From NCBI GenBank assembly GCA_016124575.1, contig WGNM01000044.1, positions 62,001-126,000 of the forward strand: a DNA stretch of 64,000 bases. Reading direction: 5' to 3'. Below, one piece after another: positions 6,576 through 61,402 of this stretch. This DNA is from Cryomorphaceae bacterium (GTDB lineage Bacteria > Bacteroidota > Bacteroidia > Flavobacteriales_D > Sanyastnellaceae). The notes beneath the pieces were generated by a model that saw only the letters and a list, made by a program, of their open reading frames with translations, was not told where the DNA came from and searched no databases. A program made the translations under genes and the position numbers. The stretch's first letter is position 1, and each line of letters opens with the position of its first letter.

Positions 6576-7376
6576 TCAGCGCAACTTGTAGTGATTCATG
6601 ATGAGTTTTTCAAACCACCTACCAGGCAGCAAACGGTATAGCCAAACGCTGAAATGTTGCGTAGCTGTGGCGACGCGATAACGCAAGTGAGGGTTTCTTT
6701 TTCGAAGAATGCGCTCTACTGCATGGGCAATGATGTCTGTTTCCATCGCTCCTGATACTTCTTGATTGATTTGTACAAGCGTGGCATCGAAAGTAGGGTA
6801 GTGCGTGTGGTCGACAGATGCTACTTTTTTGCGATTGGTATTGATGTTTGTTTTAAAATCTCCCGGTTCTACAATAGAAACCTTGATACCCATCGGAGCC
6901 AGCTCCATACTCAACGATTCAGAAATGCCTTCCACAGCAAATTTGCTAGAGCAATAGATCCCACGAAAAGGCAAGGCGAAAATTCCACCGATGCTGGTGA
7001 CATTTAAAATTCGCCCTTTTGAAATTCTCAACAGAGGAATACAGGCACGGCAGACATTCAAAACTCCGAAAACATTGGTGTCGAAGATTTCTTTCGCCTC
7101 GGTTTCAGTTGTGTTTTCGAGCGGTCCGGCCATTCCCAAGCCCGCGTTATTTATTAGAGCATCCAACAGTCCGTGATTGGCTTGAATGAAAGCAATAGCC
7201 GAGATGATCGATGACTCGTCGGTTACATCCATGCGAAGCATGCGTAAATTCCCATCGAATTGATTCACCACATTTCTACTAGCGGCATACACAATGTTGC
7301 CCTTATCCGCGAGCAAAGTAGCGATCGATTGTCCGATTCCAGACGAACCTCCAGTTACAAGTATTACTTTCGACAC
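6576..7376 (-). CDS. SDR family oxidoreductase
   Basis: A 266-residue classical short-chain dehydrogenase/reductase. The Rossmann cofactor motif is TGGSSGIG near residue 8, followed by NNAGLG, catalytic serine in NVTSIGG and the YCSSK (YxxxK) pair. The substrate cannot be told from sequence; the C-terminal part resembles the broad group annotated as 'SDR family NAD(P)-dependent oxidoreductase' acting on lipids or retinol-like substrates. It starts with GTG, chosen because VTGGSSGIG follows directly and a -7 promoter box sits five bases upstream. accC follows 34 bases downstream. Confidence 0.88.
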   Translation of the reverse strand: MSKVILVTGGSSGIGQSIATLLADKGNIVYAASRNVVNQFDGNLRMLRMDVTDESSIISAIAFIQANHGLLDALINNAGLGMAGPLENTTETEAKEIFDTNVFGVLNVCRACIPLLRISKGRILNVTSIGGIFALPFRGIYCSSKFAVEGISESLSMELAPMGIKVSIVEPGDFKTNINTNRKKVASVDHTHYPTFDATLVQINQEVSGAMETDIIAHAVERILRKRNPHLRYRVATATQHFSVWLYRLLPGRWFEKLIMNHYKLR

Positions 7377-12381: not shown

Positions 12382-13150
12382 TTTTCCGCTTTTGTACATT
12401 TTTGAGTGATAATGTACAATTGCGGAAAAGGGAGAGGCAAGTTGAATGTGGCGCTTTTGCAAGAGGTTTTAGTTATTGTTGAGTTTTCCGCTTTTGTACA
12501 TTTTTGAGTGATAATGTACAATTGCGGAAAAGGGAAAAAGCAGGTTGAATGAGGTGCTTTTACAGGAAGGTTTAGCTACCGTTGAGTTTTCCGCTTTTGT
12601 ACATTTTTGTGTGTTAGTGTACAATTGCGGAAAAGGGAAAAAGCGGGTTGAATGGGGCGCTTGTACAGGAGGGTTTAGTCATTGCTGAGTTTTCCGCTTT
12701 TGTACATTTTTGCGTCTGAGTGTACAATTGCGGAAAAGGGAAAAAGCAGGTTGAATGAGGTGCTTTTACAGGAGGGTTTAGTCAACGTTGAGTTTTCCGC
12801 TTTTGTACATTTTTGTGTGTTAATGTACAATTGCGGAAAAGGGAAAAAGCAGGTTGAATGAGGTGCTTTTACAGGAGGGTTTAGTCATTGCTTAGTTTTC
12901 CGCTTTTGTACATTTTTGTGTGTTAATGTACAATTGCGGAAAAGGGAAAAAGCGGGTTGAATGAGGTGCTTTTACAGGAAGGTTTAGCTACCGTTGAGTT
13001 TTCCGCTTTTGTACATTTTTGCGTCTGAGTGTACAATTGCGGAAAAGAGAAAAAGCAGGTTGAATGGGGTGCTTTTACAGGTGGGTTTAGTCATTGCTGA
13101 GTTTTCCGCTTTTGTACATTTTTTGCGTCCAACTGTACAAAAGCGGAAAA
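12382..13150. repeat. Eight tandem copies of a 103-bp unit built on a 48-bp palindrome
   Basis: Palindromes start at 12382, 12484, 12587, 12690, 12793, 12896, 12999 and 13102, a spacing of 103 bases (102 for the first). Each has a left arm TTTTCCGCTTTTGTACA, a 14-base centre and a right arm TGTACAATTGCGGAAAA. The arms are reverse complements except that the inner tetranucleotide is TTTT in one and AATT in the other. The eighth copy differs: its right arm is TGTACAAAAGCGGAAAA, so both arms are of the TTTT type, and its centre is 15 bases. The roughly 55-base segments between palindromes are themselves conserved (AGGTTGAATGAGGTGCTTTT is a typical core); the first is the most diverged. No convincing reading frame lies within. 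Confidence 0.97.
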
Positions 13151-13206
13151 CACAGAAATAAATAGAATAAATCGAAGGGATATCGAAAAAAAAAGGCAAA
13201 AAAAAT

Positions 13207-13305
13207 GTGGCAAGCTACTCACATCGCACCGCTACAACCACATACCCTTGCTGTCTTCCGACCCTGGGGGAGTTCTGCAGGAGCTAGTCGTATGAGACTT
13301 GCCAC
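13207..13305 (-). ncRNA. ffs: Bacterial small SRP RNA (4.5S)
   Basis: On the minus strand the 99-base transcript has the SRP domain IV hairpin: GGGTC-GGAA-GAC with the asymmetric AGCA bulge (GGGTCGGAAGACAGCAAGGG). The Ffh-binding GGAA tetraloop is present. The ends pair as GTGGCAAG with CTTGCCAC, closing the long rod. Downstream on the same strand comes CATTTTTTTTGCC and a second T-run, a good intrinsic terminator tail. The mapped 5' end at 13305 falls four bases after a -7 box. The RNA acts with Ffh in co-translational targeting of membrane and exported proteins. Confidence 0.95.
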
Positions 13306-13308
13306 GTG

Positions 13309-13338
13309 CAAAAATACACACTTTTACAATAGCCGCAA
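13309..13338 (-). promoter_or_regulatory. Promoter of the SRP RNA
   Basis: On the minus strand TTG (13338-13336, within CTTGCGG) is followed after exactly 19 bases by TATTTTTG (13316-13309), fitting the Bacteroidota consensus TTTG-N19-TANNTTTG with one -33 base off. The predicted start site coincides with the paired 5' end of the RNA. Confidence 0.8.
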
Positions 13339-47860: not shown

Positions 47861-47875
47861 TCAAGTTTTCCGCAA

Positions 47876-47892
47876 TTGTACATTTTTAAGTT
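47876..47892. repeat. Solitary half-site of the palindrome family (AATT type)
   Basis: TTTTCCGCAATTGTACA, 15 bases after the stop of the cytochrome gene and 8 bases before the end of the transposase-like gene. No matching right arm follows, so it is a half-element. It forms the left end of the candidate mobile element. Confidence 0.85.
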
Positions 47893-47900
47893 AACTGCTG

Positions 47901-48758
47901 CTAAGAAGCAGAGCCCCATGAAAGCTTGAGGATTTTCCCAAATAGCTCTTCAAACGCTTCTTGAAAGGAATCGAAAATTGAGTTATATGAAAATTCATCG
48001 AGATATTTCTGCAGGTATCGAAGAGAAATTCCGCGATGTATTTTATACAATTTTGACTTCACTTTCGTGAAAACTTCTTTCAGGTGAGGAGTAAGTTCCG
48101 CTGATAGACCGCGTATTGTAGGTTTGCGCAGTGACCGGAATCGGTTTAGTCTTTTCAAGCAGTATTTTCTCCGAAGGCACTTTAAATCTTTGGCATTTAG
48201 TTCTTTGGTCCAACGATATCCCGGTTTAGCTTGGACAAGAATTTCTTTTGCGTTAATTCCATGTTGGTCATTCAGTTGGAATGGCACTACAGGCGATTCT
48301 GTTGAGGGATCTGATTTTTTAAGTTCTTTGTCGCATTGAACAACTTCAAACATTCTACAAGTCCAATCAAATTTCTGCGACTTTTGAAGTTCCAAAATAC
48401 TCTGACCCATTGCTGTCCGTATTTTATGAATCATGTACCAAATTGGTTCATTTCTTTTGAAGTTGAGACGTCTCTTTATCTCTAGAGAAGAAATGGATCC
48501 TTTTGATTCAATCATGAACTTTATAGCTTTGAACCAAATAGATAGAGGTAAGTTGCTGTGCATAAGGATTGTACCACTTCGAAGAGTCTTCGGAGCTCCG
48601 CATGTTTTACATTGCCACTGCCATTTCTTTTCGATCCATAAATGATCAACTGGCCCACATTTATGGCAGGTTATGCCGTGGGTTTCACGCAGGGTTTTGA
48701 ACATTAATCTACAAGATAGCTCATCATCTAGAATGGCTTCAAAGGCAGCTTTTTCCAT
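47901..48758 (-). CDS. IS1595/ISXO2-like transposase homologue with degenerate catalytic region
   Basis: A 285-residue protein with an N-terminal zinc ribbon (C31, C34, C50, C53: CHKCG, CKTCG), then LRSGTILMHSNLPLSIWFKA and KRNEPIWYMIHKIRTAMGQS, both typical of the Zn-ribbon IS1595 transposases. The C-terminal LYKIHRGISLRYLQKYLDEF block matches the end of the ISXO2 domain. Where the family has IE[IV]D[ED] with the first catalytic aspartate, this protein reads FEVVQC (137-142), and no convincing second aspartate block follows. The reading frame is otherwise intact. The ATG at 48758 is preferred to a GTG or other start further upstream. It may now act as a DNA-binding protein. Confidence 0.8.
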   Translation of the reverse strand: MEKAAFEAILDDELSCRLMFKTLRETHGITCHKCGPVDHLWIEKKWQWQCKTCGAPKTLRSGTILMHSNLPLSIWFKAIKFMIESKGSISSLEIKRRLNFKRNEPIWYMIHKIRTAMGQSILELQKSQKFDWTCRMFEVVQCDKELKKSDPSTESPVVPFQLNDQHGINAKEILVQAKPGYRWTKELNAKDLKCLRRKYCLKRLNRFRSLRKPTIRGLSAELTPHLKEVFTKVKSKLYKIHRGISLRYLQKYLDEFSYNSIFDSFQEAFEELFGKILKLSWGSAS

Positions 48759-48868
48759 GGTTGGCAAGTTTAATGACTGCCAAAGTAGGAAATGGAAATG
48801 TAGGGCTGACAACGACTTTGTGAGCGACTATTAAAACTTTGTGGATGTTTAAAATGAAGTTGAAAAGC

Positions 48869-48913
48869 TTTCCGCAATTGTACATTTTAAGGCTACTGTA
48901 CAATTGCGGAAAA
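48869..48913. repeat. Palindrome-family element, both arms AATT type
   Basis: Left arm TTTCCGCAATTGTACA (the first base of the usual TTTT is C), 12-base centre TTTTAAGGCTAC, right arm TGTACAATTGCGGAAAA. It lies between the start of the transposase-like gene and the end of phoH, eight bases from the phoH stop codon. Unlike the array copies both arms are of the AATT type. Confidence 0.9.
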
Positions 48914-51048: not shown

Positions 51049-51762
51049 TTATGCTTCTTTTTCTTCTTCTGATCCTTCTTCAGCAGCAGGAGCCTCTTCA
51101 GCAACTGGAGCATCTTCAACAGCAGGAGCTTCTTCAGCAACTGTAGCCTCTTCAACAGCAGGAGCCTCTTCAGCAACTGGAGCCTCTTCAACAGCAGGAA
51201 CTTCTTCAGCAACTGGAGCCTCTTCAACAGCAGTAGCTTCTTCGGCAACTGGAGCCTCTTCAACGGCAGTAGCTTCTTCTTCAACAACTACTTCCTCAGC
51301 AACTGGTGCATTAGCAGCAGCTATCTCAGCAGCACGCTTGTCACTAACTTCTTTCTCACGTGCCATGCGCTCAGAAGCCTCTTTCTGGCTAGCTGTCGAC
51401 AATCCGTCTTTCTTAGCTTGAACTTGGTTCGCTTTTTCAGCAATCCATTGCTCAAAACGAGCATCAGCCGTTTCTTGGGTGAACGCACCTTTCGCAACTC
51501 CTTTTGCAAGGTGATTGCGGTACAATACTCCTTTGTATGAAAGAATTGCACGCGCAGTGTCAGTAGGTTCAGCACCGTTCTGCAACCAGTACAAAGCACG
51601 ATCTACATCGAGTAAAATGGTTGCAGGGTTTGTGTTTGGGTTGTATGTACCTAGCTTTTCGATGAATTTACCGTCGCGTTTTGCGCGGACATCAGCTGAT
51701 ACGATGTGGAAGAATGGTTTTCCTTTCTTTCCGTGACGTTGTAGGCGAATCTTTACTGCCAT
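51049..51762 (-). CDS. rpsP: 30S ribosomal protein S16 with long repetitive acidic C-terminal tail
   Basis: A 237-residue protein. Residues 1-80 are a normal S16 (AVKIRLQRHGKKGKPFFHIV, KFIEKLGTYNPNTNP, ALYWLQNGAEPTDTARAILS). Residues about 85-150 are an alpha-helical charged segment found in many Bacteroidota S16 proteins. From about 152 to the end it is a 12-residue repeat of the type EEAPVAEEAPAV, repeated about seven times with small changes. The DNA also repeats with a 36-base period. The tail is far longer than in E. coli S16, which has about 82 residues, and its role is not known. Confidence 0.95.
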   Translation of the reverse strand: MAVKIRLQRHGKKGKPFFHIVSADVRAKRDGKFIEKLGTYNPNTNPATILLDVDRALYWLQNGAEPTDTARAILSYKGVLYRNHLAKGVAKGAFTQETADARFEQWIAEKANQVQAKKDGLSTASQKEASERMAREKEVSDKRAAEIAAANAPVAEEVVVEEEATAVEEAPVAEEATAVEEAPVAEEVPAVEEAPVAEEAPAVEEATVAEEAPAVEDAPVAEEAPAAEEGSEEEKEA

Positions 51763-58936: not shown

Positions 58937-58986
58937 TTTTCCGCTTTTGTACATTCGGGTTTGTTCAAATGTACAATTGCGGAAAA
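58937..58986. repeat. Solitary palindrome-family element (TTTT/AATT arms)
   Basis: TTTTCCGCTTTTGTACA, 16-base centre, TGTACAATTGCGGAAAA. Same arm types and orientation as the units of the eight-copy array, but with a different centre and without the conserved 55-base spacer on either side. The following bases to 59094 show nothing recognisable. Confidence 0.92.
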
Positions 58987-61282: not shown

Positions 61283-61301
61283 AATGTACAATTGCGGAAA
61301 A
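61283..61301. repeat. Half-site of the palindrome family (AATT type)
   Basis: AATGTACAATTGCGGAAAA, the right arm of an element whose left arm is missing. The next element starts 54 bases later, almost the spacing between palindromes in the eight-copy array. Confidence 0.85.
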
Positions 61302-61355: not shown

Positions 61356-61402
61356 TTTTCCGCAATTGTACACTAAGGCAAAAAATGTACAAAAGCGGAA
61401 AA
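61356..61402. repeat. Palindrome-family element (AATT/TTTT arms, opposite orientation)
   Basis: TTTTCCGCAATTGTACA, 13-base centre, TGTACAAAAGCGGAAAA. The arm types are reversed relative to the array and the 58.9-kb copy. It lies immediately beside the terminator at 61404. Confidence 0.92.

Follow-up and report, generated by a model that had tools for sequence, protein, structure and literature searches.

P1, a 285-amino-acid IS1595-derived protein, is encoded on the minus strand (47901-48758) of the window (the whole 64,000-nucleotide stretch of DNA analyzed here) by a gene enclosed by inverted copies of TTTTCCGCAATTGTACA. With a probability of roughly 0.6, we read P1 and its paralogues as domesticated, probably catalytically dead DNA-binding proteins with conserved cognate sites, rather than as proteins that are still dispersing those sites.

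The P1 gene and its element

P1 combines a zinc ribbon (C31, C34, C50, and C53) and HTH-like N-terminus with an eroded catalytic core and a conserved C-terminal tail (YLQKYLDEF). Its matches to NF033547 (E = 4e-19; 69 of 75 bits) and to the Pfam zinc ribbon PF12760 (E = 0.001) bear out the initial annotation of an IS1595-like zinc-ribbon protein, with the qualification that both fall below curated cut-offs and that, of the DDE domain, no more than the final part is recognized. No relatives of P1 were found in the PDB. The gene does lie between exact inverted copies of the arm, as originally described, at 47866-47882 (+), starting 6 bp beyond the upstream gene's stop codon, and at 48897-48913 (−). 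However, the left arm already begins some 10 bases before the element start first given (47876); the true start is 47866, and the element extends over 47866-48913 (1048 bp). A third arm with one mismatch (CTTTCCGCAATTGTACA) lies at 48868-48884 (+), so that the right end of the element is a complete palindrome (48868-48913). This palindrome lies 5′ of where P1 starts, and 9 bp separate it from the stop codon of a convergent PhoH-like gene. In the sister species the left arm is identical, the arms of the right-end palindrome are identical at 32/32 bases, and the locus has the same surroundings (a cytochrome-like gene before, the PhoH-like gene after). A conserved (A)CTTTGTGGATG box also occurs upstream of several P1-P5 genes (e.g., window ∼48835-48860) and is perhaps a promoter or second recognition site.

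No near-identical copy of P1 was found in its own genome, where the next best match is 40% identical. Together with the orthologue in the sister species, this agrees with the earlier suggestion of a transposase-like gene outside the HUH family that has not multiplied and occupies the same locus in a relative. An ordinary multicopy insertion sequence was rejected because there is no second near-identical copy of the 1.04-kb element.

Family-A arms in the window and the genome

Within the window, 24 arm matches (≤3 mismatches) were found against 0.36 expected, with a maximum of 3 in 100 shuffles. All are intact except for one base and for alternation between two versions of the arm, CCGC-AA-TTG and CCGC-TT-TTG. 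In nine of the 11 window palindromes one arm is CCGC-AA and the other CCGC-TT, which would leave a two-base mismatch on folding; one of the remainder is AA/AA and one TT/TT. The arm that flanks P1 builds both the array and the solitary elements, as had been reported: a tandem array of eight palindromes (seven TT/AA, the last TT/TT; period ∼102-103 bp) at 12382-13150, a solitary TT/AA palindrome between convergent genes at 58937-58986, and an AA/TT palindrome at 61356-61402 that is orthologous in the sister species, where its unit is amplified. A lone arm lies at 61285-61301 (−). The orthologous array in the sister species differs in copy number or has an assembly gap. A Bacteroidales small SRP RNA gene (13204-13311, minus strand; Rfam RF04183, 97 bits) adjoins the array end at 13150, and a ribosomal protein S16-like open reading frame with a long, repetitive Glu/Ala/Pro-rich C-terminal extension occupies 51049-51762 (−).

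Across the 3.68-Mb genome (G000), a count recommended in the initial annotation gave 37 exact TTTTCCGCWWTTGTACA arms at about nine loci and a single P1 gene among seven divergent paralogues. The sister species holds 24 exact arms; reversed-pattern controls gave 0 in both genomes, and no exact arms were found in 98 other relatives.

Paralogues and their cognate palindromes

Besides P1, the genome encodes six paralogues (P2-P7) as full-length open frames, 29 to 40% identical over aligned parts, and carries three paralogue fragments at contig edges. The one congeneric species compared (G001; record JANRAA01, a Flavobacteriales MAG) yielded eleven matches, including an orthologue of every one of P1-P7 and three paralogues (P8-P10) without an assembled counterpart in G000. 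Both genomes are draft assemblies, the sister being ∼85% complete; orthologous regions are ∼83 to 89% identical in DNA sequence and have matching surroundings.

Flanking each of the seven genes is a palindrome or inverted repeat particular to that gene, in every case a variant of a TWTCCGC-like core: TTTTCCGCAATTGTACA (P1), TATCCGCAATCGTATA (P2), ATTATCCGTGAAGTTGCAA (P3), TATCCGCAATTGRAC (P4), ATTATCCGCAATGGTGCCC (P5), GATTATTCGTAATCGTACCA (P6), and GATTATCCGCGAAAGCACCT (P7). P1-P4, which form one clade (support 100/100), have a short palindrome 5′ of the gene; P5-P7 have terminal repeats only. Three dispersed families, A, B, and C, pair with P1, P2, and P4, respectively, with 37, 10, and 19 exact arms in G000 and control counts of 0. 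A search for TATCCGC...GCGGATA palindromes returned 23 in G000 and 10 in G001 (0 control matches), all of family B (P2-like) or C (P4-like). Arrays of the families share a period of ∼100-107 bp (up to 117 bp at C32), with unrelated spacers. No dispersed short palindromes were found for P5-P7, so a single function may not suit every paralogue.

Erosion of the catalytic core

In an alignment with intact relatives, two catalytic residues were missing from all of P1-P10, namely the Asp of VE(V/I/L)DE and the second one, that of (T/S)D; both are present in ordinary relatives. P1-P4 are the most eroded. In P1 and its paralogues, Pfam recognized only about the last third of the DDE domain (PF12762), and about two thirds of the P1 domain is unrecognizable; an ordinary, intact relative (L213) matches PF12762 over positions 2-153. 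AlphaFold models from equally shallow alignments (six sequences each) include the N-terminal domain in both P1 and the intact relative. In P1, pLDDT is about 60-80 over the N-terminal ∼120 residues and <50 over residues 127-230, and three long beta-strands modeled in the core of the intact relative are missing from the low-confidence core of P1. The RNase H fold has thus apparently been lost in P1, a prediction that is supportive only, given the low confidence in the core. No 8-bp target duplication was found at P1 or P5-P7 at the boundaries used. The ends of intact IS1595 relatives from other genomes are ordinary, and two of these relatives have target duplications (L052, 8 bp; L050, 9 bp).

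Selection and conservation between the two species

All seven ortholog pairs are under purifying selection (dN/dS 0.10-0.20). By domain (P2-P7), dN/dS was lowest over the first 125 residues, the zinc-ribbon/HTH half (0.035-0.10), compared with 0.13-0.36 in the eroded middle and 0.12-0.27 in the tail. Values of dS among the paralogues (0.4-1.3) mostly resemble those of host genes (∼0.7 in neighboring genes), consistent with vertical descent. The palindromes are conserved as well: over 19 orthologous comparisons, partly ascertained in that the sister contigs had been selected for carrying an element or gene, arms were 95.4% identical (519/544), loops 74.8% (157/210), and 50-bp flanks 70.3% (1225/1743; arms versus loops and flanks, Fisher P = 7e-41).

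Orthologous palindrome sites that could be compared were occupied in both species. The flanks of the sites at window position 58937, C9, C24, C43:166k, and C44:12.9k had no match in the ∼85%-complete sister assembly, and those of the C16 site matched only a repeat on the left side. Searching the sister genome with flanks of most unmatched G000 sites (copies on C28, C55:8981, and C59 were left out) found no empty site, because the searched flanks are missing from the sister assembly, repeat matches apart. Beside the lone family-A arm on C16 is a repeat beginning AGGACGGGTCATT (G000:C16:9740-10035; L139 ∼6740-7035), of which the sister genome holds many partial copies.

Sites of families A to C are regionally clustered (P about 3e-4 to 6e-6), subject, for family B, to the region having been chosen after the fact and to contigs having been joined through the sister genome with adjacency assumed. 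Four of the eight non-gene loci of family A lie on the 140-kb contig that carries P1 (P = 1.3e-4).

Origin and possible role of the palindromes

Our favored reading begins with an ancestral transposase whose zinc-ribbon/HTH half would have recognized its terminal inverted repeats. P1 appears to have kept that half and most likely still binds the repeats, as double-stranded DNA; the palindromes would then be pairs of terminal repeats serving as putative binding sites. The palindrome beside each of the P1-P4 genes is probably an operator for self-control, and P1, P2, and P4 would have further sites elsewhere, over-represented around each gene. The sites may first have spread, in the form of repeat-pair mini-elements, while catalysis was still intact; transposition has presumably been lost. 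Later change would have come mainly by tandem duplication of ∼100-bp units and by point mutation, with selection now maintaining the arms. On the best reading, most of the spread of the palindromes is ancestral and due to tandem duplication or to point mutation.

The P1 family may have a regulatory or chromosome-organizing role. By analogy with MatP/matS and ParB/parS, each of the paralogous dead transposases might mark its own stretch of chromosome by binding private palindromes that cluster around its gene, or they might control local regulons, a specific form of the proposal that we regard as doubtful.

The initial annotation had suggested a REP/RAYT-like system of a different family, and here the anatomy stands, being repeated by P2 and P4, whereas active dispersal by the protein is not supported. 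Neither outcome named there as refuting the idea, several near-identical copies of the whole element or absence of the arm elsewhere, was observed. In a rival reading, P1, P2, and P4 would still move or copy their palindromes, using unrecognized residues or a partner enzyme. A single-copy gene with cognate palindromes, doublets, tandem arrays that include flanks, and a genome with several families and one gene for each match the description of REPINs and RAYTs (PMC3116915) and fit this alternative, as do array copy numbers that differ between the species (three versus one at C32, and the window array) and two palindromes found only in G001 (C69:504 and C280:11650). Both of the latter lie at larger rearrangements. 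At C69 the palindrome is part of a 3.1-kb segment (L106, 476-3620) that carries it together with a large secreted-protein-like gene and is missing at the orthologous window point 60497. The main change between the species is in tandem copy number; the others are AA/TT flips and, at C32:70.5k, loss of part of a palindrome in G000 that the sister retains whole. Set against dispersal by the protein are the absence of both catalytic Asp residues, the eroded core, the comparable sites common to both species, P1 ends that lack an 8-bp target duplication, and the mismatched arms of most window palindromes. Some arms in coding sequence, moreover, do not appear to be insertions: one within ligA (C5) is kept in both species, and the protein aligns gap-free through it to Escherichia coli LigA; a glycosyltransferase-like gene contains a whole family-C palindrome plus another arm, with no obvious extra segment, in an alignment that is weak. 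Continuing movement of the palindromes by these proteins is thus rather unlikely.

An improbable reading is that the palindromes form RNA or DNA hairpins that work without the protein, as terminators or transcript stabilizers, and that their link to it is historical. Most are intergenic and some directly follow stop codons, as such a role would lead one to expect, but they are also found in divergent and tandem settings, and the sequence of each family tracks the paralogue that it flanks. Because many palindromes consist of an AA arm and a TT arm, perfect pairing is not the conserved property. The intrinsic terminator was rejected specifically, since the U run lies 5′ and the A run 3′ of the stem, the reverse of the orientation required.

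Least probable of all is that these are functionless, decaying relics of an ordinary IS1595 insertion sequence and its MITE-like repeat pairs: the repeats do resemble the IS1595 ends of intact relatives (e.g., L049, L050, and L052), and two P5-like fragments are 94.5% identical, but the reading had already been weakened by purifying selection in all seven ortholog pairs and by arms far better conserved than their surroundings, and window arms intact save for one base and the AA/TT alternation, with no near-identical P1 copy, weaken it further. P5-like IS1595-derived fragments lie at contig edges in G000 (C22:1-276, C38:1-270, and C51:1-270; L135, L136, and L137). The two that are 94.5% identical have different flanks and an unassembled gene middle; a P5-like paralogue may have duplicated recently, even though its group lacks the catalytic Asp, and the wider group may accordingly have moved recently.

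Comparison with known systems

P1 resembles the REP/RAYT anatomy, also described in PMC8266576: the transposase-related gene is present once, is inherited vertically at a conserved locus, and has private palindromes on its borders. Cognate doublets are dispersed, and tandem arrays include flanks; the palindromes are found elsewhere in the genome, and one genome contains several families with a protein for each. The differences are as marked. RAYTs are HUH/Y1 transposases, whereas P1 matches only IS1595 zinc-ribbon and transposase models; REPs usually exceed 100 copies per genome, compared with tens of arms per family here; and the arms (TTTTCCGCWWTTGTACA, TATCCGCAATTGTATA, and TATCCGCWWTTGAAC) do not carry a GTAG/CGTC end tag. 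P1 has also lost its catalytic Asp residues, and its sites are regionally clustered. We know of no description of REPs as regionally clustered. The 2-bp arm mismatch in most window palindromes makes RAYT-type recognition of a single-stranded DNA hairpin unlikely and argues for double-stranded recognition.

With IS1595 insertion sequences, P1 shares a zinc-ribbon N-terminus, a C-terminal DDE part, and a unit of ∼1 kb with terminal inverted repeats. It differs from them in lacking the first and second catalytic Asp, target duplications, and near-identical copies, and in its vertical inheritance, purifying selection, palindromic right end, and dispersed repeat pairs. Like the repeat pairs of the P1 system, MITEs (RUP of pneumococcus, for example) are pairs of short inverted repeats akin to transposase gene ends, but here orthologous positions are conserved and arms are under constraint. 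Solitary palindrome copies, read by eye, showed no 8-bp duplication. No active IS1595 parent was found in the G000 assembly, in which the P5-like repeat is incompletely assembled. In eukaryotic transposase-derived DNA-binding proteins and InsA-type self-repressors of IS1, catalysis is lost or absent and recognition of terminal repeats is kept; the present case differs in that a single bacterial genome encodes several paralogues, and each of them has its own conserved set of sites.

RAYTs confound persistence by moving DNA with persistence by binding DNA, and a P1-type system would separate the two. It would represent a second, unrelated chassis that converged on a single-copy transposase relative with private palindromes, its catalytic residues gone, and offers an example, open to direct testing, of transposon ends that a bacterium has made into conserved sites. 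The four paralogues with four distinct sites could serve as a natural code for DNA reading by the IS1595 zinc-ribbon/HTH half. In the literature searched, no paper combined RAYT and IS1595 and no published equivalent was found; the top IS1595 papers dealt with mobile copies or Merlin.

Wider distribution

A profile of P1-P4 matched 61/399 genomes of the order. The genus of the window was the only one in which dispersed palindromes were seen; a search of a species-representative genome collection returned the sister species only, and viral contigs yielded only ordinary IS1595 proteins. Six divergent matches were found in each of two Flavobacteriaceae-like genomes (G182 and G269; family f9). The Asp motif is missing from those of their proteins that were read, and most of the loci have 21- to 32-nt terminal repeats and no target duplications. 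Loss of catalysis with retention of the ends may thus be widespread in this order.

A further genome (G037) was considered as an independent case and rejected, as its arms lie only around the gene and are not dispersed; the ATCCCCGCTTTTATACC-like arm has no close match elsewhere in that genome. At this locus (L209, G037:C23; 2040-2406 and 3730-4242), a degenerate IS1595-like gene lies between arm arrays, with five direct ATCCCCGCTTTTATACC-like arms 77-90 bp apart on the left and four inverted copies on the right.
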